From assembly GCA_964017185.1 (NCBI GenBank), contig OZ024878.1, positions 2,645,151 to 2,709,150 of the forward strand: a stretch of DNA of 64,000 nt, given 5' to 3'. The position numbers and the translations under genes are program-made. Origin of the DNA: Rugalucina vietnamica. Lineage: Eukaryota; Mollusca; Bivalvia; Lucinida; Lucinidae. Within the stretch, counting starts at the first letter, position 1. Every line of letters begins with the position of its first letter. The notes under the pieces are model-generated. The model had not been told where the DNA came from. It was given only the letters and a program-made list of their open reading frames with translations, and made no database searches. Of the stretch, positions 1 to 62,926 are shown in pieces.

Positions 1-369
1 TATGAACCACTGCAGAAGCTGAGGGTGAGGTTATGGCCATGTAAAACCGGTTTAAGCCCGCCAGTAACTTTGTGTTACTGATCGTTCCAAGTCGATACTT
101 CTGTGGTGGTTCTTTTCGTTTTATGTCTTGGTGTTTGAATTTTTTTTTTTTTTTGTGCTGTTGGCGCCTTATGTATGTTTTCATATTTTTAGTTAAGTTA
201 AGGTAACTGAGTGGCCACCTATTGGGAAAATAGCTGCTCATTCGGCTTACGATATGTTTCATGGTATAAGTACCTGATTGTTGGTTTGGTTTTTTCCCAC
301 CTCGGTTTTTGGAGTGGGAATCTTTTTCTGATTGCGCCTTTTCCTGATCTTTGCCTACTTGTACCTTTT
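1..369 (+). mobile_element. 3' tail of YLDD-type RT retroelement, copy 1
   Basis: This matches the non-coding 3' region that follows the RT reading frame in the copies at 19415-20985 and 61491-62926. Shared landmarks are the start at 'gaaccactgcagaagctgag', the block ending GGCGCCTTATGTATG, and the fixed terminus TTTGCCTACTTGTAC. The window begins inside it, so its true left end is not visible. Confidence 0.85.
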
Positions 370-1228: not shown

Positions 1229-1985
<757 letters not shown>

Positions 1986-2079
1986 ATTAATTTATATACA
2001 TCTTGTATCTTTTGATCCAGTCAAACCTGGTCATTCTCCATATTGTATCAAGTAGTCTTGATACAATATGGAGAATAAT

Positions 2080-2409
2080 TGTTAGATCCTTTGGAAGCAG
2101 TAAAAATATTCAAAGAGAGGTGGGTCATATTGTACAATTTCGGGTAATGAACCTTCATCAGTGACCCTTTACAAAACTGGCAGCGAAAGCCAGACATTCA
2201 TGATTGCTGTAATTTCAAGAATTTTCACCAGTATAGTCTGAATCAAAGACTTTAATTCCCAAAGGGGCCAAATATGCAAAATTCTGTTAAGATAATGATT
2301 CTTAACGTACAGTATATTTCAAATACTCCAAACATCTTCACTGATCTCAAAGGATCAAAAGAAAAATATAATCTGCACTATGGATGATGTACGGGGAGAC
2401 TTTTTAGGG
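2080..2409 (-). mobile_element. Hammerhead-bearing dispersed repeat, truncated copy
   Basis: Homologous to the repeats at 33597-34070 and 31750-32290; for example, all share GATGATGTAC followed by GGGAGACTTTT. It ends abruptly at about 2410, where the RT-element 3' region of copy 2 begins, so one of the two truncated the other. It carries the ribozyme motif at 2122-2167. Confidence 0.7.
2122..2167 (-). ncRNA. Type I hammerhead ribozyme motif
   Basis: Minus-strand order: stem I strand GGGTCA, core CTGATGA, 13-nt stem II, GAAA, self-complementary stem III TTGTACAA closed by U16.1, cleavage nucleotide A, stem I strand TGACCC. Stem I pairs perfectly over 6 bp. One defect is an A/C mismatch at the first stem II pair; the paralog at 33650 has the expected G-C there. 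Confidence 0.7.
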
Positions 2410-3847
2410 CCAACAGCACAAAAAAATTTAAACACCAAGACATAAAACAAAAAGAACCACCACAGAAGTATCGCCTTGGAACGATCAGTAACACAAAGTT
2501 ACTGGCGGGCTTAAACCGGTTTTACAGGATCCTCTCAGCTTCTGCAGTGGTTCATAACATTTAGTAAGTTCTTCGGTCCTCGTGGTGAATCTCTAACTAG
2601 TCAATGAATCATCAAGAACAAACAAATAAATCATGATAAACATCCTGATGAATCAAAAACAAGGACTCACAGATTGAGTAAGCTGCCCGACGATGGAGAT
2701 CCCTGGGCGCCGAATAACCTACTAACTCCGGAGCAAAAGAAAAACACCAGTTAAACCCCGGTGGGCCAAGCAACAGACAAGAAGCTCCGGCCCCAACCAA
2801 CTAAAATGAATAGCTTTAAGTCGGGGCCATCATAGAGTCTGACGCCCGATCCACCGGCGTGCAATTAAAGAAGGCAGCATAGTTATCAACCATGATTGGG
2901 TTAAAAACTAAGCATGCTGACTGTCGCATAACATTCAAGTTATAACCTATACGTCTGTAACGCGTTATGATTTTTCTGAACTGAAAAGAAAAATCATTAA
3001 TTCCTATAAGTTTCTTAAATTTGTAAACTAAGTCACCATAAAATTCAGGTTCCGAAAGGCCCTCACTTAAAAGCGTCTTTAATCAAACATTATATTTGGA
3101 AATCAATTCATAGTGTCTACGATAAAATTTAGAAAAGGTTTTTCGAAGTTTATGATACCGATAGCCCTGTTGGAGAAGTTTTGCCGTTAAACATTTATTT
3201 CGAGCGTTGAAGTCTGTAACATGATTGCAGACTCTAGCAAACCTAATAAGTTGCGAAATGTAAACACCATAAGAAGCACGACGAGGAACGTCACCATCCA
3301 AGAAAGGAAAATTTACTATATCAAAATCAAAGCCATCGCGCTTATCATAAATTTTAGAAGAAACAAATCCATTTGCAACAGAAAGATGTAGATCTAAAAA
3401 GGGGGCTTCGGTATCTGAGATACTGGCTTTGTTCAACTGAAGTTCAAGTGGATAAATTTGATTGACCATACCTTCAAAATAAGGGTTGTCAATGTTCAAA
3501 AGGTCATCGAGGTACCTAGATGTGGAATTAAAAGCCTCGATAACATCAGCTTGATTATCATGGTTAAGAGAATCCATGAAATCTCTTTCGTAGCAGTATA
3601 AAAATAAATCAGCTACGAGAGGTGCGCAATTTGTACCCATCGGAATTCCAACAATTTGTCTGTATAACTTGGTCCCAAATCTAATATAAATATTATCAAG
3701 GAGATAGGACAAGGCGTCGCACACATTCTGACATGACCAAAGTGTATACCGACTTTGGTCAGAGGAAGTGAAAAAAGCCTTTCTGTCATTACATGCCAAA
3801 CAAAGTGAACCATAGTTTTTTAAGACTGAATGATTTTTTTTTTTCAT
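2410..3847 (-). pseudogene. RT retroelement, copy 2 (5'-truncated, nonsense)
   Basis: Reading leftwards, it opens at the NYGSL region (about residue 223 of the longest copy), passes through IPMGTNCAP and RYLDD, and meets a TGA at 3083-3085 where other copies read GGG. The frame then continues to the family stop at 2816-2818 (last residues MMAPT). The 3' region is cut at 2410, losing the last ~170 bp including the TTGTAC terminus. The 5' end meets another copy in opposite orientation. Confidence 0.85.
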
Positions 3848-19414: not shown

Positions 19415-20985
19415 GAAAAATTGTTGGAATTCCGATGGGTACAAATTGCGCACCTCTCGTAGCTGATTTATTTTTATACTGCTACGAAAGAGATTTCATG
19501 GATTCTCTTAACCATGATAATCAAGCTGATGTTATCGAGGCTTTATTCCACTTCTAGGTACCTCGATGACCTTTTGAACATTGACAACCCTTATTTTGAA
19601 GGTATGGTCAATCAAATTTATCCGTCTGAACTACAGTTGAACAAAGCCAATATCTCGGATACCGAAGCCCCCTTTTTAGATCTGCATCTTTCTGTTGAAA
19701 ATGGATTTGTTTCTTCTAAAATTTATGATAAGCGCGATGACTTTGATTTTGATATAGTAAACTTTCCGTTTTTGGATGGTGACGTTCCTCGTCGTGCTTC
19801 TTATGGTGTATACATTTCGCAACTTATTAGGTTTGCTAGAGTCTGCAATCATGTTACAGACTTCAACGCTCGAAATAAATGTTTAACGGCCAAACTTCTC
19901 CAACAGGGCTATCGGTATCATAAACTTCGAAAAACCTTTTCTAAATTTTATCGTAGACACTATGAATTGATTTCCAAATATAACGTTAGGTTAAAAAAGG
20001 TAAAAGTAGGCAAAGATCAGGAAAAGGCGCAATCAGAAAAAGATTCCCACTCCAAAAAACGAGGTGGGAAAACACCAAACTAACAATCAGGTCTTAAAAG
20101 ACGCTTTTAAGTGAGGGCCTTTCGGAACCAGAATTTTATGGTGACTTGGTTTACAAATTTAAGAAACTTATAGGAAGTAATGATTTTTCTTTTCAGTTTA
20201 GAAAAATCATAACACGTTACAAACGTATAGGTTATAACTTGAATGTTATGCGACAGTCTGCATGCTTAGTTTTTAACACAATCACGGTTGATAACTATGC
20301 TGCCTTCTTTAATTGCACGCCGGTGGGTCGGGCGTCAGACTCTATGATTGCCCCGACTTAAAGCTATTCATTTTAGTTGGTTGGGGCCGGAGCTTCTTGT
20401 CTGTTGCTTGACCCACCGGGGTCCAACTGATGTTTTTCTTTTGCTCCGGAGTTAGTAAGTTATTTGGCGCCCAGGGATCTCCATCGTCGGGCAGCTTACT
20501 GAATCTGTGAGTCCTGGTTTTTGATTCATCAGGATGTTTATCATGATTTATTTGTTTGTTCTTGATGATTCATTGACTAGTTAGAGATTCACCACGAGGA
20601 CCGAAGAACTAACTAAATGTTATGAACCACTGCACAAGCTGAGGGTGAGGTTATGGCCATGTAAAATCGATTTAAACCTGCCAGTAACTTTGTGTAACTG
20701 ATCGTTCCAAGTCGATACTTCTGTGGTGTTTCTTTTTGTTTTATGTCTTGGTGTTTAAAATATTTTTGTGCTGTTGGCGCCTTATGTATGTTTTCATATT
20801 TTTAGTTAAGTTAAGGTAACTGAGTGGCCACCTATTGGGAAAATAACTGCTCATTCGGCTTACGAAATGTTTTCATGGTATAAGTACTTGATTGTTGGTT
20901 TGTTTTTTTCCCGCCTCGGTTTTTGGAGTGGGAATCTTTTTCTGATTGCGCCTTTTCCTGATCTTTGCCTACTTGTACCTTTCCG
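19415..20985 (+). pseudogene. RT retroelement, copy inside E1 (frameshifted, self-invaded)
   Basis: Starts at the VGIPMGTNC motif, so it lacks motif A. A 2-base deletion just before RYLDD (near 19545) shifts the frame. From there a 170-codon stretch reads through YLDD to KYNV. A 98-bp piece of the same family's 3' tail in reverse orientation (19996-20093) then splits the C-terminus. The remainder resumes and ends at the family stop and complete TTGTAC terminus. Confidence 0.85.
19996..20093 (-). mobile_element. 98-bp RT-element tail inserted in an RT copy
   Basis: Contains AGTAGGCAAAGATCAGG to CTAACAATCAGG, the last ~95 bp of the family, on the minus strand. TTAAA lies on both sides (19991-19995 and 20094-20098), where intact copies have a single TTAAA. 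This fits a severely 5'-truncated retrotransposition event. Confidence 0.8.
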
Positions 20986-21242: not shown

Positions 21243-24200
21243 TATAGAGACAACAGAATGTAATGGTCCATGAGCTATTTAAGATATCGGTACCACCTGA
21301 CCTGAACAGATCCCCCCGCACTTTTTGACAATTTTGGCATGTATAGAATTAGATAAAATCGGGGGGACCTTTCTAGGTGGTAGCTTTATGGTTAAAATCT
21401 TCAAGTTTATTCTAGTATACCCCCTTCATTTGTCTGTGTTTTTCTCTTATATCTTAAGTTTTCTTCAATTTTGGAACAAGATAGTCAGCTTGTTCATATG
21501 TCTTATTATATAACATGGCTATCAATTATTGTCATATCAATCATTTGATACCAATTTTAGCTCTCTAGGACTTTTGGCCGCTGAGATATAAACGTTTCTG
21601 TTGGTATACCCCCTCTATTTTTCTGTCATTTTTATCTAATATTTTAAGTTCTCATCAACATTTAACACTAAGAAAGCCTAGTTTTTCATAAATCTTATCC
21701 TATGATTATAGAGCAACACCATAGCAATCAGCTGATACCAATTTCGGCTCTCTATAACTTTTAGTTGCCGAGTTATACAGATATTTTGGGGATATACTCC
21801 CTCCACTTTTTTCTGTGATTTTTCTCTAATATTTATAGTTTTTATCAATATTCAAAAAAAGTAAGTCAGGTTGTTTGTGAGTCTTACCACGTGGTTTTAG
21901 AACATTATCTTAGCAATTATTTGATACCAATTTCAGCTTTCTAGAGTTGTTTGTCATTGAGATATTAGCAGTTTTATTGGTATACCCCCTTCGTTTGCGA
22001 GTGATTTTTCTCTTATTTCTTAAGTTCTTTTAAATATTTGAGAAACAAGAAAGTCAGCTTGTTTACATACTTGTTGCATGGTTATAGAATATTGTCATAG
22101 CAATCATTTTATAGCAATTTCAGCTCTGTAGAGCCTATGGTAACTGAGATATAAGCAGTTTTATTGATATACCCCCTTCTTTGCCAGTGATTTTTCTTCT
22201 ATATCTTAAGTTTTCTCAAATATTTGAGCAGCAGATTGTTTAAGTGACTTACCATGTGGTTTTAAAGCATTATTTTAGCAATCATTTGATACCAATTTCA
22301 GCTTTCTAGGGCTTTTTGTCGATGAGATATTAGTAGGTATATTGGTATACCCCCATCGTTTGCAAGTGATTTTTCTCTTATATCTTAAGTTCTTTTAAAT
22401 ATTTGAGCAACAAGAAAGTCAGCTTGTTTATATACTTGTTACATGGTTATAGAATATTGTCAAAGCAATCATATTGTAGCATTTTCAATCTCTAGAATTT
22501 TTGGTTATTGAGATATATACGTTTCCGTTGGTATACCCCCTATATTTTTCTGAGATTTTTTTATCTAATATTTAAAGTTCTCATCGCTATTTCATCAATG
22601 AGAAAGTCAAATTATTTATGTTTTTATCACATGATAAAAAAAGTTATTCTAGCAATCATTTGATACTAATTTAAGCTCTCTAGATATTTTGGTCACTGAT
22701 ATATTAGCAGTTTTCTTGGTATACCCCCTTCGTTTGCCAATGTTTTTCTCCTATAGCTTACGTTCTCTTAAATATTCGAGAAACAAAAATACATTTTGTT
22801 TATATACCCTTTACATGGTTATAGAATATTGTCATAGCAATCATTTGATACCAATTTCAGCTGCCTAGAACTTTTGGTTGTTGAGAAATACGTTTCCGTT
22901 GGTATACCCCTATATTTTTCAGAGATTTTTATCTAATATTTAAAGTTTTCATCTATATTCCAACAATTAGAAAGTCAAATTATTTATGTTCTTTATCTTA
23001 TGATTATAGAACATTATTCTTGCAATCATTTGATACCAATTTTAGCTCTCTAGAGCTTTTGGTCACTGACATATCAGCAGTTTTATTGGTATAACCCCTT
23101 GGTTTGCAAATGTTTTTCTTCTATAGCTTAAGTTCTCTTAAATATTCGAGAAACAATAAAGACAGTTTATTTATATACCCTTTACATGGTTATAGAATAT
23201 TGTCATAGCAATCATTTGATACCAATTTCAGCTGTCTAGGACTTTTGGTTGCTGAGATATATACGTTTCCGTTGGTATACCCCCTATATATATCTGAGGT
23301 TTTTATCTAATATTTAAAGATCTCATCTATATTCCAACAATGAGAAAGTCAAATTTATTATGTTTCTTATCTTATGATTATAGAACATAATTCTAACAAT
23401 CGTTTGATTCTAATTTTAGCTCTCTAGAGCTTTTGGTCACTGAGATATCAGCAGTTTTATATGTTTACCCCTTCGTTTTCCAGTGATTTTTCTCCTATAT
23501 CTGAAGTTCTCTTAAGTATTTGCGCTACAAGAGAGTCAGCTTATTGATATATCTTATTGTATAATTATAAAATATTGTTATAGCAATCATTTGATACCAA
23601 TTTCTGTTCTTTATGACTTTTGGTTCCTGAGAAATACACGTTTCCGTAGGTATACCCCCTTCATTTTCTGTGATTTTTCTCTAATATTTAAAGTTTCCTC
23701 ATTATTTGAACAGCACAAAAGTCTGACTATTAATGTATCTTGTTATGTCATTTTAGAATGTTATCATAGCAATCATTTGTTACAAACTTCAGCTCTCTAT
23801 GGCTTTTGGCTGCTGAGCTATAAACGTTTCTGTAGGTATACCCCCTACATTGGTCTCTAAAATTGAAAGTTCTCATCAATATTTGAACACCAAGAAGGTC
23901 AAAATCATTCTGTATTTTTTCACATTAATATAGAACATTATCATAACAATAATTTAATACAAATTTCAAGTCTTTGGAGTTTTTGGTTGCTGAGATATCA
24001 GAATTTCGTTGATTTTTCCCCTTCGTTTATCTGTTATTTTTCTCTAATATCTGAAGTTCTTTTTAATATTTGAGCATTAAGATAGTCAGCTTGTTTATAT
24101 ATCTTATTACATGGTTAAAGATCATTGGCATAGCAATCATTTGATACCAATTCAAGCTCTTTAGAGCTTTTGGTTGCTGAGATATAAACAACTGTGCTGG

Positions 24201-25701: not shown

Positions 25702-25890
25702 ATATATTCTAACCAACGTTTCATATATTTGGCCCCGTCTGGATAATACAAGTCTGTTGAAAGTTACTAAATTACAGTATTTCTCTTTGGCTCCAGTTTA
25801 CCAAATTTAAAGGGTCAATGGAGTTGCTTGAGTAGCCGAAACCGTGGTATGGCCCACCCCTTTTCTCATTGATATGCTCACTGCTCTTAA
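25702..25890 (+). repeat. LR, middle segment with hammerhead-like remnant
   Basis: Continues LR after E1 (TTCTAACCAACGTTTCATAT) and matches 58664-58850. At 25812-25855 it has GGGTCA, a stem II-like hairpin, GAAA, CCGTGGT, A and TGGCCC, but the CTGANGA core reads ATGGAGT, so it is a decayed hammerhead. Confidence 0.65.
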
Positions 25891-28110
25891 GCAGTCACAC
25901 AGTAGCGTATAACCCAAACGCGCGCCGGGCATATGAATGAAGACTTTGGACGTATAAAATTAATTTGTTCCTTTAACTCGCTTTAGCAGTCACACATTAG
26001 CGCGTGACTGAGGCGAGTACCGGACGTATAAAAAATCTCAAAGTTTTGGAGTACTGTTGTTATACGTCCCAGACACGCTAAGCACGCTCTACATGCGCGC
26101 ATCGAACGTTCAACGCGCGTTTCACACACGCTTGGGGCACGCTACTGAAGCAAAATCTAATTAAATCGGAAAGCGCATGGAACGTACACTGGCGTGTATC
26201 AAACGCACACCAAGCGCATTCAGAGCGTATTTAAAGCGCCTGTAGCGCGCGTGGAACTTATTCGGGACGTATAAGTAACACGCCCAAGGCACGCCGAGGT
26301 TTTAGAGAAAAAAAATTAAGCATGTTTAAAAAATTTTGAGCCCAAACGCGCGCGAAACGCGCATAGATTTTTAAACAGCAGTCACACATTAGCGTACATA
26401 AGTGAAACGCGCGCCGGGCGTGTTGAAAAATTGCAAAATTCCACATACGCCAGAAACACGTCGGAGACACGTTCGAAGCGCGTTATGAGGACGTTGTGTA
26501 CGCTTGGTGTACATCCGGCATGCATCGCTGTATGTCGCTAAAAATCATCAATTTAACATGCTTAAAAATCTTCTAGAAGCCCGGCGTGTCCCGGGCGTAT
26601 GACTTATACGTTTCGAATGAGTTCCACGCGCGCTACAGGCGCGTTAAATACGCTTCGAACGCATTTGGCACACGTTTGAGGCACGCAAGTGTATGCTCCA
26701 CGCGCGTTCCGATTTTATTAGATATTGCTTCAGTAGCGTGCCCCAAGTACGGAAGAGCATTACAGCCAGGTATTTTATTTTTTTTTTTTTTTTAATTTTG
26801 AAATTTCGACTTAGTAACTCGAAATTTCGACTTAGTAACTCGAAATCTCGACTTACTATCTCGAAATTTCGACTTATTATCTCGAAATTTCGACTTAGTA
26901 ACTCGAAATTTCGACTTAGTAACTCGAAATTTCGACTTACTATCTCGAAATTTCGACTTATTATCTCGAAATTTCGACTTAATAACTCAAAATTTCGACT
27001 TAGTAACTCGAAATTTCGACTTACTATCTATTACAGGAAACTGGCGTACAGTAGAGTAAATAAGTCGAAATTTCGAGATAGTAAGTCGAAATTTCGAGAT
27101 AGTAAGTCGAAATTTCGAGATAGTAAGTCGAAATTTCGAGATAATAAGTCAAAATTTCGAGATGGTAAGTCGAAATTTCGAGATAGTAAGTCAAAATTTC
27201 GAGATAATAAGTCGAAATTTCGAGATAGTAAGTCGACATTTCGAGTTAATAAGTCGAAATTTCGAGATAATATGTCGAAATTTCGAGATAGTTAGTCGAA
27301 ATTTCGAGATAATAAGTCGAAATTTCGAAATAGTAAGTCGAAATTTCGAGTTACTAAGTCGAAATTTCGAGTTATTAAATCGAAATTTCGAGTTAATAAG
27401 TCGAAATTTCGAAATAGTAAGTCGAAATTTCGAGATAGTAAGTCGAAATTTCGAGTTATTAAGTCGAAATTTTGAGATAGTAAGTCGAAATTTCGAGTTA
27501 CTAAGTCGAAATTTCGAGATAGTAAGTCGAAATTTCGAGTTACTAAGTCTAAATTTCGAGTTACTAAGTCGAAATTTCGACAAATTTCGACTTACTAAGT
27601 CGAAATTTAGACTTAGTAACTCGAAATTTCAAAATTAAAAAAAAAAAAATACCTGGCCCTTATACTCTTCCGTACCCAAGCGTGTGTGAGGCGCGCTTTG
27701 AACGTTCGCTGCGCGTCCATAACGTGTGCTTAGCGTGTCTTGGACGTAAGACTAACGAACTCTTAAACTTTGAGATTTTGTATACGTCCGCACACGCCTC
27801 AGTCGGGCGCTAATGTGTGACTGCTAAAGCGAGTTAAAGGTACAAATTAATTTTTATACGTCCAAAATCTTTAGCGTATTGACATTTTTCTTTTCATACG
27901 CCCGGTGCGCGTTTGGGTTATACACTAATGTGTGACTGCTGTTTTAGCGACGTACAGCGACGCGCGCCGGACGTACACCAAGCGAACCCAACGCGCTTGT
28001 AGCGAGTTTTAAACGTGTTTCGGACGAGCGTCTGGCGTATGTGTAATTTTGCTATTTTTTCAACACGCCCGGTGCGCGTTTCACTTAATACGCTACTGTA
28101 TGACTGCTGT
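25891..28110. mobile_element. 2.2 kb nested foldback element flanked by TTAA
   Basis: Flanked by TTAA (25887-25890, 28111-28114) where the LR paralog near 58853 has a single TTAA. Ends are inverted copies of GCAGTCACACAGTAGCG. The same GCAGTCACAC module recurs inward at about 25984 and 26374, with mirror copies at 27820, 27940 and 28095, so the arms are repeated inverted repeats rich in GCGCG. The centre is a 21-bp tandem hairpin. The TTAA flanks suggest piggyBac- or Kolobok-type mobilisation (inference). Confidence 0.7.
26800..27625. repeat. 21-bp palindromic tandem repeat in inverted halves
   Basis: The unit is built on CGAAATTTCG plus a spacer such as ACTTAGTAACT. About 11 units run one way (26800-27030), then a ~30-bp spacer, then ~25 units in the opposite sense (27061-27585), and a short return. 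It is framed by a poly-T left and poly-A right, with mirrored AGCCAGGTATTTT sequence. Open frames here (SKFRLSN-type repeats) are artefacts. Confidence 0.92.
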
Positions 28111-30267: not shown

Positions 30268-30632
30268 AAAAGCTACAAGTAGGCAAAGATCAGGAAAAGG
30301 CGCAATCAGAACAAGATTCCCACTCCAAAAACCGAGGTGGGAAAAAACAAACAAACTAAAAATCAGGTACTTATACCATGAAAACATTTTGTAAGCCGAA
30401 TGAGCAGCTATTTTCCCAATAGGTGGCCACTCAATTACCTTAACTTAACTAAAAATATGAAAACATACATAAGGCGCCAACATCACAAAAATATTTTAAA
30501 CACCAAGACATAAAACAAAAAGAACCACCACATAAGTATCGACTTGGAACGATCAGTAACAAAAAGTTGCTGGCGGGTTTAAACCGATTTTACATGGTCA
30601 TAACCTCGCCCTCAGCTTCCGCAGTGGTTCAG
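30268..30632 (-). mobile_element. RT retroelement 3' tail
   Basis: From TACAAGTAGGCAAAGATCAG to the CAGCTTCCGCAGTGGTTC block; ~365 bp of the 3' region on the minus strand. Confidence 0.85.
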
Positions 30633-31741: not shown

Positions 31742-31749
31742 AATTCAGT

Positions 31750-32290
31750 ACGGGAAGACTTTTAAGGACAGCCACACGGCACAACCAGCTGCAGTAATGG
31801 TAAATAAAAAATAGAACTCAGATCCTTTAAGAGCAGTGAAGACACTAATGATAAAGAGGATGGGCCATACCGTGGTTCCGACTATTTAAGTCTCGACAGT
31901 GACCCTATAGACATGGCAACATGAAGCCAAAGAGAATAACTGAAATTCTGCAACTTTCAACAGTGTAGTCGATACAAAGACTAATATTATCTAAATGGAA
32001 CCAAATATATTGAACATTGGTAGGAAAATGAATCTTAACCGATAATAAATTTCTGATTTCTCATAATATCCTCGCTGATCTCAAAAAACCAAAACAAAAA
32101 TATAATCTGCACTATGGATGATGTACTGGGAGACTTTTGAAGGCCGTCACACGGCACAACACCAGCTGCGGTAATAGCAAATGAAATTACGTAACTTGTT
32201 AGAAATGGAAGCGTTCCATATCGCCACAAGTTCCACATCGCCACAGCGGCATTTTCAAAGGTATTAAAATCCAACAGAAATAATCATCTT
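31750..32290 (-). mobile_element. Hammerhead-bearing repeat, about 1.5 units
   Basis: The block CACACGGCACAACCAGCTGC (31770) recurs as CACACGGCACAACACCAGCT (32147), giving a unit of ~370 bp in direct repeat. A decayed hammerhead lies at 31862-31906. No coding capacity. Related to 2080-2409, 33597-34070 and 54300-54950. Confidence 0.65.
31862..31906 (-). ncRNA. Decayed hammerhead motif
   Basis: Stem I strands GGGTCA and TGGCCC and a GACT/AGTC stem II are kept, but the core reads CTGTCGA (A6 lost) and GAAA has become GGAA. Predicted inactive. Confidence 0.5.
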
Positions 32291-33329: not shown

Positions 33330-33595
33330 TTAATGATTTTTCTATACTGAAAAGAAAATACATTCCTTTTTATACGTTTCTAAACTTTGTAAACCATGTC
33401 ACCATAAATTTTGGTTCAGTAAGTCACCTATGTTCAGTAAAGCGTCTTTAGCCAAGCATTACATTTTGAAATCAATAACCATGACTGCGATAAAAGTAAG
33501 AAAAAGTTTTTGAAGCCCTGCTGGAGAAGTTTGACTGTAAAACATTCATTTCACGCGCTATAGTCAGTAACATGATTGCAGACCCTAGCAAATAA
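33330..33595 (-). pseudogene. Degenerate RT fragment (C-terminal region)
   Basis: Diverged match to 45640-45910: the CTGGAGAAGTTTGACTGTAA and ACATGATTGCAGACCCTAGC blocks correspond to the KLLQQGY and RVCNHV regions. Frame lost; no 3' region attached. It borders the next hammerhead repeat directly. Confidence 0.7.
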
Positions 33596-33649
33596 AATAT
33601 AAATGCTGGATTCGTTGGATGCAGTAAAACATTCAAAGGTAGATAGTAT

Positions 33650-33695
33650 GGACTTTATTGCGCAATTTCGGGTAATAAACCCTCATCAGTAGCCC
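33650..33695 (-). ncRNA. Type I hammerhead ribozyme motif
   Basis: CTGATGA, stem II with GGG pairing CCC, GAAA, then TTGCGCAA closed by U16.1 and cleavage A. The stem I strands GGGCT and AGTCC pair (one G-U), with an A-A mismatch next to the core. The core is canonical. Confidence 0.65.
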
Positions 33696-33974
33696 TATTG
33701 AATCCGGCAACGAAAGCCAGACTATTGTGCTGCAATTTCGAGAATTTACACGAGAATTCTAAATCAAAGATACGTTCCTAAACGGGGCAAATGATTCAAC
33801 TATTGCTTAGAAAAATGAATATAAACGTAAGTGTTTTGAACACTCTGAATATCTTTACTGGTCTCAAAGAGCCGAAAGAAAAATAGTATCTGCACAATTG
33901 ATGATGTACGGGGAGACTTTTTAGGGCCGCTAATAAAAAATAAAACTGAGATCCTTTTAGAGCAGTGAACACAT

Positions 33975-34018
33975 GGGTCATACCGCGGTTTCGACTATTA
34001 AAGTCTCGTCAGTGACGC
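33975..34018 (-). ncRNA. Type I hammerhead ribozyme motif, canonical core
   Basis: Minus-strand order: GCGTCA, CTGACGA (position 7 may be any base), stem II GACT with a 5-nt loop and AGTC, GAAA, CCGCGG stem III closed by U16.1, cleavage A, TGACCC. Stem I pairs at 5 of 6 positions. All conserved core nucleotides are present. The short stem III is typical of metazoan type I motifs, which often work best as dimers. Confidence 0.78.
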
Positions 34019-34110
34019 TTTAGATTTGGCAGGCAACATAGAGCCAAAGAGAATAATAAATAAAATCTATATTGTGTCAGTAATTTGATAAAATTATCAA
34101 AGATAATATA

Positions 34111-34120: not shown

Positions 34121-35524
34121 ATGGCGTCGGTTGGAGCATCTTACGACTTAGAGTGCAGTGTTTGCTTAAAAAAGGGACAGCACAAAGAAGCAAAGGCTTT
34201 CTGCGAAGACTGTGAGGGATATCTTTGTAGTTCTTGCATGGACACTCATGGTCAATTTCCGACCCTACGAAATCATTAAACGGGATCCATTGAAGAAATA
34301 AAGAAATTGTGTGGTATTTGTAAGGCAAAGGGTAAATTGAAGGACGCGAGATGTTTCTGTAAAGACTGCGAAGCATGGATATGTGACGACTGTAAGGATT
34401 CGCATAGAGACTTTCGAGACTTGCAAAAGCATGCCATTGTCACTAAGGATGCCGTAATATGCATTGAATCATCTGCCCCCAGTGACATCTCAACTCGATT
34501 AGAGGAGTTGTCAACTAAACCTTCAGAAGATTCATCGGTCCACACGGATCTCGAAACTAAACCACAAGTATATAATGAAGATAAACCCCGAAACCTACAA
34601 ACGAAACCAAGCGAATATGCTGCATCGAAATATCTGGCTAAACCCTCAACCGACTCTTCTACTCCTGCTGCCGAGCATAAAAATATGGATATATTGCATT
34701 ATAAGACAACAAAGAAAATTATAGAAATTGATGTGAATCTTAAGATGTCAGGCGATAAATGGAAGTGTGATATAACTGGTTGTTGTTTCATGCCGGGTGG
34801 TGAGCTAGTCTTATGTGACAATAGCAATTATAAACTCAAACTATTAGATCGTTCCATGTCGATAGGATACCAGGTAGACATACCGGCTATACCCTATGAT
34901 GTAGCAGCCATAGACAACAGTAACGTTTTAGTAACTATGCCTTGGGTTAAACAACTCCAGTTCATCCATGTGTTACCATCCCTTAAGCTAGACCGTACTA
35001 TTGATGTTGGCCAGAAATGTTGGGGTGTTGATGTAGCCGTTGGAAATATCTATGTCTCCTGTTACGACATTGATGAAACAATGGCTGAAATACATGTACG
35101 AGTGTATAACCTCGAAGGAAGGGACCTTGGGAAGAGAATAAACATCAATCCAGCCGGTTCTAACATGTTCCGTGACCCTCGTTATGTCGCAGTCAGTAGG
35201 TTAGGTGACAAGATATTCGTATCTGACTGGACTACCAACATAGTAACCTGTCTAACAAGTAACGGGAGGATAGTGTATCAATATCGAGATGATTTGCTTA
35301 GAGGGCCACAAGGGTTATTGGTAGATGACAATGACAATTTTTGTGTATGTGGTTTTGACAGTCACACCGTTGATGTTATAACATCATCTGGTAGGAAATA
35401 TAAAACGATGCTGTCGCGTAAAGATGGTGTATCATGTCCCAGATATGTCTGTTTCAGACCCAGTGACGGAACTCTTGTTGTGGTTGGTTGGAAATACAAA
35501 CCTCTGGCTTATAAAATGTCATAA
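34121..35524 (+). pseudogene. Tandem B-box / beta-propeller (TRIM-like) gene with internal stop
   Basis: A single frame of 467 codons. Box 1 has C12, C15, C28, C31, C36, C39, H43 and H52. A TAA at codon 53 (34277-34279) follows, and a second box has exactly the same spacing, starting at codon 64 (CGIC, CKDC, CDDC, H, H). A linker with repeated TKPSE-like motifs leads to a C-terminal half (about codons 200-467) like an NHL/six-bladed propeller (FVSDWTTN, GPQGLLVDDNDNFCV). The family acts in ubiquitin-linked signalling and innate responses, usually with an N-terminal RING, absent here. The piece after the stop has no nearby ATG (codon 63 is TTG). One point mutation explains the stop; the rest is open, so it may be a recent pseudogene, a polymorphism or an assembly error. 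Confidence 0.8.
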
Positions 35525-44868: not shown

Positions 44869-47405
44869 AGGTACAAGTAGGCAAAGATCAGGAAAAGGCG
44901 CAATCAGAAAAAGATTCCCACTCCAAAAACCGAGGTGGGAAAAAACCAAACTAACAATCAGGTACTTATACCATGAAACATATCGTAAGCCGAGTGAGCA
45001 GCTATTTTCCCAATAGGTGGCCACTCAGTTACCTTAACTTAACTAAAAATATGAAAACATACATAAGGCGCCAACAGCACAAAAAATTTTAAACACCAAG
45101 ACATAAAACAAAAAGAACCACTACAGAAGTATCGACTTGGAACGATCAGTAACGCAAAGTTACTGGCGGGCTTAAACCGGTTGTACAGGTACCTAACCTC
45201 ACCCTCAGCTTCTGCAGTGGTTCACAACATTTAGTTAGTTCTTCGGTCCTCGTGGTGAATCTCTAACTAGTCAATGAATCATCAAGAACAAACAAATAAA
45301 TCATGATAAACATCCTGATGAACCAAAAACCAGGACTCACAGATTGAGTAAGCTGCCCGACGATGGAGATCCCTGGGCGCCGAATAACCTACTAACTCCG
45401 GAGCAAAAGAAAAACACCAGTTGGACCCCGGTGGGCCAAGCAACAGACAAGAAGCTCCGGCCCCAACCAACTAAAATGAATAGCTTTAAGTCGGGGCAAT
45501 CATAGAGTCTGACGCCCGACCCACCGGCGTGCAATTAAAGAAGGCAGCATAGTTATCAACCATGATTGGGTTAAAAACTAAGCATGCAGACTGTCGCATA
45601 ACATTCAAGTTATAACCTATACGTCTGTAACGTGATATGATTTTTCCGAACTGAAGAGAAAAATCATTTATTCCTTTAAGTTTCTTTAATTTGTAAACCA
45701 AGTCACCATAAAATTCAGGTTCCGAAAGGCCCTCACTTAAAAGTGTCTTTAACCCAACATTATATTTGGAAATCAATTCATAGTGTCTACGATAAAATTT
45801 AGAAAAGGTTTTTCGAAGTTTATGATACCGATAGCCCTGTTGGAGAAGTTTTGCCGTTAAACATTTATTTCGAGCGTTGAAGTCTGTAACATGATTGCAG
45901 ACTCTAGCAAACCTAATAAGTTGCGAAATGTATACACCATAAGAAGCACGACGAGGAACGTCACCATCCAAAAAAGGAAAATTTACTATATCAAAATCAA
46001 AGTCATCGCGCTTATCATAAATTTTAGAAGAAACAAATCCATTTGCAACAGAAAGATGTAGATCTAAAAAGGGGGCTTCGGTATCTGAGATATTAGCTTT
46101 GTTCAACTGAAGTTCAGGTGGATAAATTTGATTGACCATACCTTCAAAATAAGGGTTGTCAATGTTCAAAAGGTCATCGAGGTACCTAGATGTGGAATTA
46201 AAAGCCTCGATAACATCAGCTTGATTATCATGGTTAAGAGAATCCATGAAATCTCTTTCGTAGCAGTATAAAAATAAATCAGCTACGAGAGGTGCGCAAT
46301 TTGTACCCATCGGAATTCCAACAATTTGTCTGTATAACTTGGTCCCAAATCTAATATAAATATTATCAAGGAGATAGGATAAGGCGTCGCACACATTCTG
46401 ACATGACCAAAGGGTATACCGACTTTGGTCAGAGGAAGTGAAAAAAGCCTTTCTGTCATTACATGCCAAATAAAGTGAACCATAGTTTTTTAATGCCCTT
46501 TTGAAGGTCCACTCTATCAAATCCAGAAGTTTTTCTTTAATTAGATTATGTGGTAATGTTGTATACAGAGTAGAAAAATCATATGTGGACAAGCTTGTCG
46601 CACGGAACCCTCTACACTTCAATTTACTGAGCACCTCACCAGAATTTTTTATTGACCAAAACCAATTTTTATTTGAAGTTTCATACACTGTCTCACAATA
46701 TCTTATAACATGAGATTTGATAGCAGTAAGACAAGAAGTTAATAATTTAGAAAGTTCAGTGGTAGTACAAGAGCTAGAATTTGCAATAAATCTAGCTTTG
46801 TATGGTCTTTTGTGAAGCTTAGGTAACCAATACATCGTAGGAAGTTTGTCTTGGCCTTCATTGACACAAACAGAAAACTTAACAGGTAAATCGTTTAAGT
46901 GGGCATTTACTACAGACACCTCATCAGTATCTGTCTCCAGATAAGCCCTGGTACCATCAAGCTCCTGTTTTAAGGTGTTAACGTAGTGAAGTCTACAAAC
47001 GACAACAACATTGTTTGCGGCTTTATCTGCCGGAACCAAGACATACTTTCTATGAAATTCTTGGATACCCTGCTTCAAATGCCTAAATGACGATTTGGGT
47101 TTAGGAGGTAAAAGATTAGTATTTTGTGAATAAAACTTAATACGTTTATCCACGATAGTGAAGATACTTCTTTTCCATTCTTTAAGAGCATTATCCTCAA
47201 CACCCTCTCGTTTACACCATCGATTACCGAAATCATTTAATGCAGATGCAATCTCCTCTCTACATTTGTCGAAATTAATGTAGGAAGGGAATCTATATTT
47301 CGGACCTTTAGAAACAATTTTGCGAATTCTAGAATCCGAAATTATTTTTAAATTTCCAGTAACTATATGTCCAGCTGGTTGATAAACATATTTTGAATCT
47401 TTACA
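44869..47405 (-). mobile_element. RT retroelement, most complete copy (Penelope-like?)
   Basis: One open frame runs from after a TGA near 47405 to TAA at 45486-45488 (~640 codons), with a ~615-bp 3' region ending TTTGCCTACTTGTAC. Counting from the MDKRIKF methionine at 47153: PADKA 41-45, LPKLHK 110-115, motif A YDFSTL with D192, motif B PMGTN 281-285, motif C YLDD 324-327, thumb to MIAPT. Upstream codons read GNLKIISDSR and KGPKYRFPSY, known in this animal RT family. No endonuclease, GIY-YIG or RNase H is visible. Variable 5' truncation of all other copies fits target-primed reverse transcription. Penelope-like affiliation is my best guess. The 5' end may also be truncated. Confidence 0.8.
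45486..47153 (-). CDS. Reverse transcriptase, intact frame
   Basis: 555 codons with all RT motifs (D192 in YDFSTLY, D326-D327 in YLDD) and no internal stop. The upstream frame stays open for ~84 more codons without a methionine, so the true start may lie in lost sequence. It is the only copy in the window with motif A and the only plausible source of functional enzyme, located inside an intron of the dead transposase gene. Confidence 0.8.
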   Translation of the reverse strand: MDKRIKFYSQNTNLLPPKPKSSFRHLKQGIQEFHRKYVLVPADKAANNVVVVCRLHYVNTLKQELDGTRAYLETDTDEVSVVNAHLNDLPVKFSVCVNEGQDKLPTMYWLPKLHKRPYKARFIANSSSCTTTELSKLLTSCLTAIKSHVIRYCETVYETSNKNWFWSIKNSGEVLSKLKCRGFRATSLSTYDFSTLYTTLPHNLIKEKLLDLIEWTFKRALKNYGSLYLACNDRKAFFTSSDQSRYTLWSCQNVCDALSYLLDNIYIRFGTKLYRQIVGIPMGTNCAPLVADLFLYCYERDFMDSLNHDNQADVIEAFNSTSRYLDDLLNIDNPYFEGMVNQIYPPELQLNKANISDTEAPFLDLHLSVANGFVSSKIYDKRDDFDFDIVNFPFLDGDVPRRASYGVYISQLIRFARVCNHVTDFNARNKCLTAKLLQQGYRYHKLRKTFSKFYRRHYELISKYNVGLKTLLSEGLSEPEFYGDLVYKLKKLKGINDFSLQFGKIISRYRRIGYNLNVMRQSACLVFNPIMVDNYAAFFNCTPVGRASDSMIAPT

Positions 47406-54288: not shown

Positions 54289-54448
54289 AGTCCTACTGCG
54301 CTTAAGATCGCCTTACGATTGTCTAAATATTAATTTGGGGGCCATTTCTTTGACCTCGATATGCAAATTAAGAAAGTAGAAACACGTTAGAAAATATTTA
54401 ACAATTTTGCATACGCAGCCATATTGGCTCCATGTTGCGAAATCTATA

Positions 54449-54483
54449 GGGTCACTGAAGAGGCCGAAACCGCGGCATGGTCC
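54449..54483 (+). ncRNA. Hammerhead motif with deleted stem II
   Basis: GGGTCA, CTGAAGA, then only GGCC before GAAA, CCGCGGC, A, TGGTCC. Relative to 54818-54861 nine bases of stem II are gone; probably inactive. Confidence 0.6.
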
Positions 54484-54817
54484 ATCCCCTTTCTTATTAA
54501 TATATTCGCTGCTCTTATAGGATCTCAGTTTTATTTTTAATTGCTATTACTGCAGCTGGTGTTGTGTCGTGTGGTGGTCCTAATGCGTCTCCCCGTGCAT
54601 CATCCATAGTGCGGATTATATTTTCCTTTTGGTCCTTCGAGATCAGCGAAGGTATTCTGAGAAATCAAAAGTTATTATCGGGTTTAGATTCATTTTCTAA
54701 CCAACGTTTCATATATTTGACCCCATTTGGATTATACTGGTCTTTGCATCGACTACCCAGTTAAAAGTTGCAAAATTACAGTAATTTTCTTTGGTTCCAT
54801 GTTGCAAAATCTGTAGG

Positions 54818-54861
54818 GTCACTGAAGAGGTTTAAGCAGCCGAAACCGCGGTATGGCCCAT
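54818..54861 (+). ncRNA. Type I hammerhead ribozyme motif, canonical core
   Basis: GGGTCA; CTGAAGA core; stem II GGTT/AGCC with loop TAAGC; GAAA; CCGCGG stem III closed by U16.1; cleavage A at 54855; TGGCCC. Stem I pairs over 6 bp with one G-U. All core positions match the hammerhead consensus. Confidence 0.78.
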
Positions 54862-54984
54862 CCCCTTTCTCATTAATATATTCGCTGCTCTTACAGGATC
54901 TCAGTTTTATTTTTATTATCAATAAACTTATGACTATACAATCGTATGATTGCTAACGATTCAGTGGGTCTGGCGCTTAAGCTG

Positions 54985-55673: not shown

Positions 55674-56262
55674 AGTACAAGTAGGCAAAGATTAGGAAAA
55701 GGTGCAATCAGAAAAAGACTCCCACTCCAAAAACCAAGGTGGGAAAAAACCAAACTAACAATCAGGTACTTATACCATGAAAACATTTCGTAAGCCGAAT
55801 GAGCAGCTATTTTCCCAATAGGTGGCCACTCAGTTACCTTAACTTAACTAAAAATATTCAAATATACATAAGGCGCCAACAGCACAAAAATATTTTAAAC
55901 ACCAAGACATAAAACAAAAAGAACCACCACAGAAGTATCGACTTGGAACGATCAGTAACACAAAGTTACTGGCGGGTTTAAATCGATTTTACACGGTCGT
56001 AACCGCTTCTGCAGTGGTTCATAACATTTAGTTAGTTCTTCGGTCCTCGTGGTGAATCTCTAACTAGTAAATGAAGCATCAAGAACAAACAAATAAATCA
56101 TGATAAACATCCTGATGAATCAAAAACCAGGACTCACAGATTCAGTAAGCTGCCCGACGATGGAGATCCCTGGGCGCCAAATAACTTACTATCTCCGGAG
56201 CTAAAGAAAAACATCAGTTTGACCCCGGTGGGCCAAGCAACAGACAAGAAGCTCCGGCCCCA
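55674..56262 (-). mobile_element. RT retroelement 3' region
   Basis: From GTACAAGTAGGCAAAG to AGAAGCTCCGGCCCCAA, nearly the whole non-coding 3' region, truncated ~20 bp short of the RT stop codon and abutting an M2 MITE. Confidence 0.85.
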
Positions 56263-58364: not shown

Positions 58365-58773
58365 TAGTACGCTGGATTAGAACTGAAGAATGAATTTTCC
58401 GTGGCGATGATCGAACATTGTACGTTTTGCTACTTAGATGTATTCGGAAATTTACTCCTACATAAATTATCGATGGACCACGGGGTAGCACTATTAAATA
58501 ACGAGGTCCTAATTTTCGTCAGCAGGATAGATTACTTCATGAAGATATTTATTCAAGAACTAGTATTTTTTTCTTCATATTTACTTTTAAGCCTAAATTC
58601 AATATTTTATTGATTAGCATATAAGGTATTCTGAGAAAACAGAAATTCATTATCGGTTTAGATATATATTCTAACCAACGTTTCATATATTTGGCTCCGT
58701 CTGGATAATACAAGTCTGTTGAAAGTTGCAAAATTACAGTTATTCTCTTTGGCTCCAGTTTACCAAATTTAAA

Positions 58774-58817
58774 GGGTCAATGAAGATGCTTGAGTAGCCG
58801 AAACCGTGGTATGGCCC
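58774..58817 (+). ncRNA. Hammerhead-like motif with mutated core (C3 to A)
   Basis: GGGTCA, ATGAAGA instead of CTGAAGA, a hairpin GCT/AGC, GAAA, CCGTGGT, A, TGGCCC. Everything except C3 is kept, but loss of C3 abolishes hammerhead catalysis in characterised ribozymes. Confidence 0.5.
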
Positions 58818-58980
58818 ACACCTTTTCTCATTGATATGCTCACTGCTGTTAAAGGATATAAGTTTTATTTATGTTTTACATGACTTAGTCAAAATCTGAA
58901 CTATCGCGGGTAACATCATTTGTCTGGGTTCTTGTCTTGCAAACTGGAGGCTTAGCAATTATTTCATTGTGATTTACTTA

Positions 58981-61490: not shown

Positions 61491-62926
61491 TGCGCACCTC
61501 TCGTAGCTGATTTATTCTTATACTGCTACGAAAGAGATTTCATGGATTCTCTTAACCATGATAATCAAGCTGATGTTATCGAGGCTTTTAATTCCACTTC
61601 TAGGTACCTCGATGACCTTTTGAACATTGACAACCCTTATTTTGATGGTATGGTCAATCAAATTTATCCATCTGAACTACAGTTGAACAAAGCCAATATC
61701 TCGGATACCGAAGCCCCCTTTTTAGATATACATCTTTCTGTTGCAAATGGATTTGTTTCTTCTAAAATTTATGATAAGCGCGTTGACTTTGATTTTGATA
61801 TAGTAAATTTTCCTTTTTTGGATGGTGACGTTCCTCGTCGTGCTTCTTATGGTGTATACATTTCGCAATTTATTAGGTTTGCTAGAGTCTGCAATCATGT
61901 TACAGACTTCAACGCTCGAAATAAATCTTTAACGGCCAAACTTCTCCAACAGGGTTATCGGTATCATAAACTTCGAAAAACCTTTTCTAAATTTTATCGT
62001 AGACACTATGAATTGATTTCCAAATATAATGTTGGGTTAAAGACGCTTTTAAGTGAGGGTCTTTCGGAACCAGAATTTTATGGTGACTTGGTTTACAAAT
62101 TTAAGAAACTTATAGGAAGTAATGATTTTTCTTTTCAATTTAGAAAAATCATAACACGTTACAGACGTATAGGTTATAACTTGAATGTTATGCGACAGTC
62201 TGCATGCTTAGTTTTTAACCCAATCACGGTTGATAACTATGCTGCCTTCTTTAATTGCACGCCGGTGGGTCTGGCGTCAAACTCTATGATGGCCCCGACT
62301 TAAAGCTATGCATTTTAGTTGGTTGGGGCCGGAGCTTCTTGTCTGTTGCTTGGCCCACCGGGGTCCAACTGATGTTTTTCTTTTGCTCCGGAGTTGGTAA
62401 GTTATTTGGCGCCCAGGGATCTCCATCGTCGGGCAGCTTACTGAATCTGTGAGTCCTGGTTTTTGATTCATCAGGATGTTTATCATGATTTATTTGTTTG
62501 TTCTTGATGATTCATTTACTAGTTAGATATTCACCACAAGGACCGAAGAACTAACTAAATGTTATGAACCACTGCAGAAGCTGAGGGTGAGGTTACGGCC
62601 GTGTAAAATCGATTTAAACCCGCCAGTAACTTTGTGTTACTGATCGTTCCAAGTCGATACTTCTGTGGTGGTTCTTTTTGTTTTATGTCTTGGTGTTTAA
62701 AATATTTTTGTGCTGTTGGCGCCTTATGTGTGTTTTCATATTTTAGTTAAGTTAAGGTAACTGAGTGGCCACCTATTGGGAAAATAGCTGCTCATTCGGC
62801 TTACGAAATGTTTTCATGGTATAAGTGCCTGATTGTTAGTTTGGTTTTTTCCCGCCTCGGTTTTTGGAGTGGGAATCTTTTTCTGATTGCGCCTTTTCCT
62901 GATCTTTGCCTACTTGTACTTTTTTA
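61491..62926 (+). pseudogene. RT retroelement, 5'-truncated copy with open C-terminus
   Basis: Begins at CAPLVADLFLY (about residue 286 of the longest copy) and is open through YLDD to the MMAPT stop near 62303, then a complete 3' region to TACTTGTAC. Motif A and most of motif B are missing, so no active enzyme. Close to the copy at 19415, but without its frameshift or nested tail. Confidence 0.87.

Follow-up and report, generated by a model that had tools for sequence, protein, structure and literature searches.

In metazoan retrozymes, as studied in mussel, coral and axolotl, self-cleavage of the transcripts and their circularisation by tRNA ligase have been described, and reverse transcription of the resulting circles is proposed there as a model (PMC7229834). 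The repeats of metazoan retrozymes offer, according to the accessible text of PMC7761336, no conserved motif that would help to deduce an autonomous partner. Penelope-like elements are a further point of reference. In the one from Anolis, the reverse transcriptase (RT) starts internally, 111-118 nt into the open reading frame (ORF), and the RNA must reach +172 (PMC11167929); head-to-head inverted pairs are frequent among Penelope elements (PMC3846280). Where the copies of a retrozyme end gives a hint at its mode of transposition.

Here, a window of 64,000 nt (the whole stretch of DNA that was analysed) from the bivalve Rugalucina vietnamica, contig OZ024878.1, is considered, in which a sequence-only reading had pointed to a hammerhead ribozyme (HHR) at 33975-34018. 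Judged from the sequence comparisons discussed below, this motif is probably the HHR of a non-autonomous metazoan retrozyme of which a decayed copy is present here and which would have spread by internal-start copying of circular or multimeric RNA. The useful part of the analysis is an end footprint, i.e., a fixed array 3' end bordering a block that is common to two otherwise diverged families, A and B. The retrozyme-related features of the window and its flanking gene are:

33975-34018, minus strand: HHR-A, type I hammerhead of family A, assessed by core, Rfam score, descriptor search, two-sided changes and fold energy
33931-34056, minus strand: family-A retrozyme fragment, 5'-truncated, unit 303-374 followed by 1 to ~65
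33586-33930, minus strand: family-B retrozyme fragment, near-complete, unit 98-373 followed by 1-70
33650-33695, minus strand: HHR-B, a second hammerhead 323 nt from HHR-A, the first pair of its stem I mismatched (A-A)
33333-33599, minus strand: decayed internal RT repeat piece, directly 3' of the B fragment
54424-54917, plus strand: family-A-like copy of 1.3 units, HHR core at 54816-54859 intact, upstream HHR damaged
31748-32189, minus strand: family-A copy, HHR core broken (CTGTCGA, GGA)
58627-58876, plus strand: family-A-like copy, HHR core broken (ATGAAGA)
25707-25890, plus strand: family-A-like fragment, HHR core broken
2075-2411, minus strand: family-B-like copy abutting an RT repeat at 2409, HHR at 2122-2167
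34121-35524, plus strand: B-box/NHL-like (TRIM-like) coding region, best Pfam matches under the cut-offs

The last five retrozyme entries are further copies in the window, three of them with broken cores; in the HHR at 2122-2167, an A-like stem I is combined with stems II and III that resemble those of B.

Read on the minus strand from 34018 to 33975, HHR-A is GCGTCA CTGACGA GACTTTAATAGTC GAA ACCGCGGT A TGACCC, and the core, the 4-bp stem II, the A at the cleavage position and a stem I paired at five of six positions are found as the sequence-only reading had described them. Cleavage is predicted between 33981 (A) and 33980 (T). The unpaired position is a C-C mismatch at the fifth pair of stem I counted from the core. 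The proposed ACC/GGU stem III would be a hairpin of 3 bp around a 2-nt loop, which is not feasible; the segment can instead form a 2-bp stem under a CGCG tetraloop, or pair two ribozymes with each other as an 8-nt palindrome. Calling the motif canonical was too strong, the copy being decayed: in addition to the stem I mismatch, 16 nt beside stem I are gone, a deletion just 3' of this stem where intact A copies have TGRCCCATCCCCTTTCTCATTAATATGTTCACTGC. Canonical HHRs are defined by tertiary contacts between loops 1 and 2; in this respect, a possible extension of stem I past a 6-nt bulge, with all three pairs present in 56 of 133 contexts, mainly of family A, is lost in HHR-A.

A search with the Rfam hammerhead model had been set beforehand as the check on the motif, and here the result went against it, HHR-A scoring 17.3 bits with RF00163 (E 0.11, on 201 nt) at a gathering score of 34. 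This model is insensitive to the present HHR family, though, because full-core copies held by five of six loci go unlisted; no HHR was reported among these six loci at E ≤ 10, which corresponds to ~17-18 bits in that search. The whole-window Rfam scan at gathering cut-offs reported only a SECIS. While a comparable HHR descriptor matched once per 400 random windows (first-order Markov sequences of window length), it matched at two places in the real window. In its 53-nt context, the fold of HHR-A is no more stable than those of shuffled sequences (z 0.08), and none of seven copies tested with Vienna energies has the HHR fold as its minimum free energy structure (MFE); the energy of the HHR fold is -2.3 kcal/mol for the window copy, -8.8 and -9.4 kcal/mol for two intact A copies and -7.0 kcal/mol for an intact B copy.

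At the level of the family, the picture is clearer. The family A HHR reads GGGTCA CTGACGA GACTTTAATAGTC GAA ACCGCGGT A TGRCCC, that of family B GGGCTA CTGATGA GGGTTCATTACCC GAA ATTGYRCAAT A TAGTCC. Across 44 distinct rows from both families, chosen by homology and not by fold (51 distinct rows less nine ragged ones, plus HHR-A and the window HHR at 2122-2167), 6 of the 13 HHR pairs are changed on both sides with 96% of the cells paired, a count that is uncorrected for relatedness among the rows and in which most changes separate family A from family B. When the partner was slid by 1-3 columns as a control, 18-47% of the cells were paired and one to four pairs showed two-sided changes. The whole three-helix core, which is open at stem I and comprises CUGANGA, GAA and a UH cleavage site, is contained in 35 of the 44 rows, the window copy included, and 37 of the 44 have a stem III that is perfectly palindromic; read as a hairpin, it has only 2-3 bp and a tetraloop. 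The palindrome fits ribozymes that would act in pairs. The fetched loci contain intact HHRs whose stem I is completely paired, and many of these recur in tandem at a spacing of ~372-377 bp. The hammerhead is confirmed as real in the family, with the window copy a decayed type I HHR.

The genome searched comprises 1.09 Gb on 47 contigs. The 121-bp locus query gave at least 40 matches (40 scored of 2010 first-look candidates), a neighbouring 331-bp query at least 88 (40 scored of 3839), revealing family B, which is tandem as well, and a whole-unit family A query at least 131 (40 scored of 3031); 2010, 3839 and 3031 are candidate counts at first look, not copy numbers. Units measure 372-381 bp in family A (30 units) and 370-380 bp in family B (41 units), each with one HHR, and one real unit per family has a GC content of 0.38 (A) or 0.39 (B) and a longest ATG-initiated ORF of 30 or 56 aa. 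Among the loci fetched, the arrays of both families are dispersed and range from about 0.5 to 14 units, with 5.4 copies of 374 bp each at L009. Unit identity is higher within than between arrays (98.4 vs 94.6% in A, 97.4 vs 93.0% in B). The 14 units of L045 differ at 51 columns, and the heterogeneous units of such long arrays would fit a multimeric template or later expansion just as well as a circle.

The flanks differ from array to array, as read with L001, L007, L011-L017 and L019 set aside as duplicates of the window or of other loci that are longer or came earlier. Direct target-site duplications of ~12-15 bp are clear in 2 of 33 A arrays, none being clear for the remaining 31. Head-to-head inverted pairs occur at L064 (33-bp spacer) and C1:18721183-18721938 (18 bp), inverted flanking repeats have one strong case (L008, 17 bp), and a target-motif test on 54 3' junctions gave mild A/T enrichment only. 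The two-family ~374-bp repeat is a metazoan non-LTR retrozyme, i.e., of a known kind; the placement of a type I HHR within a dispersed metazoan retrozyme-like repeat is upheld by the tandem ~374-bp units and the two-sided changes between the families. The start codon of a TRIM-like gene that had been noted on the opposite strand is indeed there (ATG at 34121, 103 bp from HHR-A); this neighbourhood looks incidental because the other retrozyme arrays read have different flanks. The frame from this ATG appears to stop ahead of the long ORF at 34307.

The most regular property of the arrays is their 3' end. Among arrays ≥150 bp outside the window, the 3' end lies at unit 55-75 for 33 of 35 in family A and for 21 of 22 in family B, a count that leaves out the window arrays, arrays <150 bp and L024, whose flanks are the same as those of L023. 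In both families this end point lies about 65 nt downstream of the predicted cleavage site and is directly preceded by TTTT. The first A query, consisting of the HHR and ~50 nt after it, was biased against arrays ending earlier, not later. In the whole-unit A search, 40 of 41 arrays among the matches listed end in a partial copy stopping at unit 45-68, and one stops at 198; these arrays were hand-grouped from match rows, with 8 of the loci already in the first set, and the list is coarser, most matches stopping at 48-52 with the T-rich tail apparently skipped. Shortly upstream of arrays lie two irregular pieces, namely unit 57-274 (C6:11061804-11062021) and unit 184-253 (C11:29140643-29140712); they were not counted as arrays and do not fit a simple end rule. 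In the open-access main texts searched, no description of fixed retrozyme 3' ends was found. While the element itself belongs to a known kind, its fixed array 3' end is a new observation.

The window locus carries this signature in composite form. On the minus strand, the B-box-gene flank is followed by the A piece, the B piece with HHR-B and the decayed RT piece. The A fragment ends at the usual family A 3' end point, and the B piece (83-90% identity over 33600-33930 with other family B copies among the matches listed) starts where the A piece stops, i.e., at that very point. A B array follows an A 3' end at L046 and a B 3' end at L050; arrays placed directly at earlier 3' ends may reflect re-insertion at old ends or template jumping. 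At the junction of the B fragment with the RT piece, which is probably Penelope-like, there is microhomology, and ~14 nt of the overlap are ambiguous. This RT piece belongs to a repeat of which the window has several further copies. Among 65 array entries outside the window, the repeat lies within 10 bp 3' on the same strand at L028 (9 bp) and L040 (0 bp), and no direct duplication was found around these two composites; L039 lies within a copy of it, and on the opposite strand it adjoins L031 (14 bp) and the two entries of L060 (8 bp or overlapping). The repeat makes up 4.8% of the fetched loci. Chimeras of retrozyme and RT repeat formed by template jumping were considered and kept as a weak lead only.

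A diverged RT repeat is present in the window in four copies, and every one of them has a SECIS-like structure, located either at the end of the copy or behind it (SECIS cut-off 35 bits). These copies and other features of the window are:

45486-47153, minus strand: RT repeat copy, SECIS match at 45444-45511 (minus), 30 bits
3083-3847, minus strand: RT repeat copy, SECIS match at 2774-2841 (minus), 39 bits
19514-20083, plus strand: RT repeat copy, SECIS match at 20336-20403 (plus), 30 bits
61458-62303, plus strand: RT repeat copy, SECIS match at 62276-62343 (plus), 31.9 bits
62611-62674 (plus), 49-113 (plus), 30521-30585 (minus) and 55921-55984 (minus): twister ribozyme matches of type P1, weak at 20.8-23.3 bits against a cut-off of 67.2
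21415-24185: large satellite, rich in A/T, with a period of 187/374 bp and 68-79% matches
26800-27580: 21-bp tandem array of GAAATTTCGAGTTAGTAAGTC

In the copy at 45486-47153, in-frame TGA codons stand just upstream of the SECIS. The SECIS-bearing RT repeat presumably resembles Naiad-type Penelope-like elements, for which selenoproteins have been reported in clams; Pfam assigned it no clear family, and a literature search on the link between Naiad-type elements and selenoproteins found nothing. All four twister matches fall within the 3' region of this repeat, the one at 62611-62674 with E 0.0045 on 171 nt, and represent a twister in decay or else a hairpin that merely looks like one. Despite the close 374-bp period, the retrozyme unit had no match in the satellite at 21415-24185.

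The 5' ends of the arrays are variable but not simply random. In the ≥150-bp set from outside the window, 1 of 34 A and 1 of 22 B arrays start at unit 55-75, and the starts are spread over the unit (Rayleigh p 0.73 for A, n = 34; p 0.08 for B, n = 22). Two excesses, both noticed after the fact, stand out. Among the matches listed in the whole-unit search, 17 of 41 A arrays start at unit 331-374, inside the HHR (4.8 expected, p 1.4e-6), a stretch lying just past the cleavage site in the direction of copying; none of these 41 starts exactly at the cleavage site. For 12 of them, which had no listed 5' partial copy, the start was read from the sequence (three fetched loci, nine short stretches). 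In the ≥150-bp set, six of the 34 A starts and two of the 22 B starts fall within the same stretch or at unit 1. In family B, 8 of 22 arrays start at unit 45-65, where ~1.2 would be expected, and have made near-whole laps; among A arrays, the starts near this position number 3 of 34 (unit 40-67, ≥150-bp set) and 3 of 41 (unit 39-67, whole-unit search, among the matches listed). Both excesses, inside the HHR in A and at unit 45-65 in B, are possible sites of RT stalling. Copying across the cleavage site followed by a stop in the hammerhead would imply an uncut template. The near-whole laps of B fit either a stop at the circle's own start site or a linear RNA with its 5' end near unit 50.

A block that the two families have in common begins at the array 3' end point. 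When 30 A and 41 B units are aligned, A-B identity is 93-97% over unit 57-135 vs 35-80% elsewhere, making this the sole strongly conserved stretch. The block sits 3' of the insertion end, and an RT starting there would therefore not copy the block first; this geometry resembles that of the Anolis Penelope-like element in that RNA beyond the RT start would be needed (PMC11167929). The RNA fold of unit 57-184 is not convincing (z -1.36), and a 23-nt stretch of the block had no exact match in viral contigs. The genome contains open frames of 760-977 aa bearing a GIY-YIG domain (150 scored of 451 candidates), and one whole Penelope-like unit was taken from it:

G000:C15:425700-429900: L065, unit of a tandem Penelope-like array with a period of 3893 bp; its open frame of 964 aa recurs in neighbouring units

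In this unit and in the start regions of two partial elements, L066 and L067, the block found no significant match, the best one, in L066 and L067, being a 14-nt stretch with E 0.06. The retrozyme HHR is absent from all three sequences; L065 and L067 have minimal HHR-like motifs of their own. Short insertions in the window at 1309-1510 (minus) and 1881-2044 (plus) match the region upstream of the L065 ORF, the former with a minimal hammerhead-like motif, CTGATGA AGCCGAAAGGC GAAA, and both matches stop about 150-190 nt past the hammerhead place.

As a working model, multimeric retrozyme transcripts would self-cleave, perhaps as ribozyme pairs via the palindromic stem III, and a host ligase would close ~374-nt circles. 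A reverse transcriptase would dock on the conserved block (unit 57-135), target-primed synthesis would start at the U-rich site at the 5' edge of the block, and the enzyme would go round a varying number of times, passing the uncut cleavage site on its way, before it stops at variable points; the A 5'-end excess would correspond to copying that passes the uncut site and halts in the folded hammerhead. The head-to-head inverted pairs and the GIY-YIG-bearing frames of the genome favour this model; the scarcity of clear direct duplications (2 of 33 A arrays), the Penelope-like sequences sampled, in which neither the block nor the retrozyme HHR occurs, and the two irregular pieces upstream of arrays speak against it. 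From the end positions and the alignment of the families, we infer internal initiation at one site, with the block as a putative docking site; a Penelope-like nature of the mobilising enzyme is speculative. The complete proposal, according to which retrozymes are satellites of internally initiating Penelope-like RTs that dock on the block, start at its 5' edge and make several laps of a circle, often stopping in the folded HHR or at their own start, is offered tentatively and would fall slightly short of an even chance. If it is true, the start site has left its in vivo footprint in the array 3' ends, and the block is a handle for finding the partner. If the block is the docking site, the question of the helper becomes open to binding and priming assays, for which genomes like this one provide many natural insertion ends for mapping.

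Because of the 5'-end excesses, the circle has been weighted down and a linear multimer up as template. Such an RNA would have its 3' end at unit ~65 by T-rich, Pol III-like termination at TTTT and its start perhaps near unit 50, a LINE-type RT would begin at that 3' end, and the block would act as promoter for the unit that follows. LINE and SINE insertions have a fixed 3' end and 5' truncation, which is the behaviour seen here; TTTT just before the end point in both families and the 8 of 22 B arrays starting at unit 45-65 speak for it as well, with the U-rich end as a possible terminator for Pol III and the block as a possible promoter. Promoter-like motifs have been described in the pLTRs of Penelope (PMC3846280). 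However, arrays of up to 14 units would demand equally many terminator read-throughs, a working hammerhead should remove the last 65 nt, and A arrays lack a 5' excess near unit 50 (3 of 34; 3 of 41 among the matches listed), so that we regard this as an unlikely, if serious, competitor of internal initiation on circles. Far less probable is ordinary satellite DNA amplified by unequal crossing-over or as rolling-circle DNA, with the hammerhead as a passenger: tandem arrays of homogenised units would suit it, but the dispersal of the arrays with differing flanks and one common 3' end point, the two of 33 arrays that have direct duplications (~12-15 bp) and a hammerhead fold kept via paired changes do not. 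That the 44-nt motif is no ribozyme and resembles one by chance can draw on the Rfam score below threshold and on an HHR fold that differs from the MFE; set against one descriptor match per 400 random windows, intact relatives at other loci and two-sided pair changes across 44 rows, its probability is practically negligible, and for the family chance is refuted.

In comparison with known systems, the plant LTR retrozymes (PMC4918200, PMC7229834, PMC7761336) are likewise non-coding hammerhead retroelements, but they carry type III HHRs in their LTRs together with PBS and PPT (PMC7229834, PMC7761336), whereas simple tandem units with a type I HHR are present here. As a class, metazoan non-LTR retrozymes have no LTR, PBS or PPT and are expressed as abundant linear and circular RNA of ~170-400 nt. 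The tandem units with one type I HHR fall into the ~150-450 bp range of metazoan non-LTR retrozymes, and they share with these a GC content below 45-50%, the non-coding nature and, where present, target-site duplications >4 bp (~12-15 bp, 2 of 33). Closest are the retrozymes of the mussel Mytilus galloprovincialis (PMC7229834), which, like families A and B, have one type I HHR per unit, with a unit size of 350-390 bp as compared with 372-381 and 370-380 bp here. Low GC, the non-coding nature, dispersed tandem arrays, two HHR families and the presence of Penelope-like elements in the same genome are common to both (PMC7229834), a likeness at the level of unit features. A fixed array 3' end is seen here, while none is given for mussel or other metazoan retrozymes in the accessible text of PMC7229834 and PMC7761336, and the conserved block at this end contrasts with the lack of a helper-pointing motif in metazoan repeats stated in the latter (PMC7761336). 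Penelope-like elements encode an ORF with RT and GIY-YIG, whereas the retrozyme unit has no ATG ORF >56 aa and showed no significant similarity to those sampled (one whole unit, two partial regions). With them it has in common partial tandems, head-to-head inverted pairs and target-site duplications that are sometimes absent (PMC11167929, PMC3846280), and in Penelope-like elements with a minimal type I HHR the ribozyme is located, as in the retrozyme described here, upstream of an internal insertion 3' end (PMC11167929, PMC3846280).
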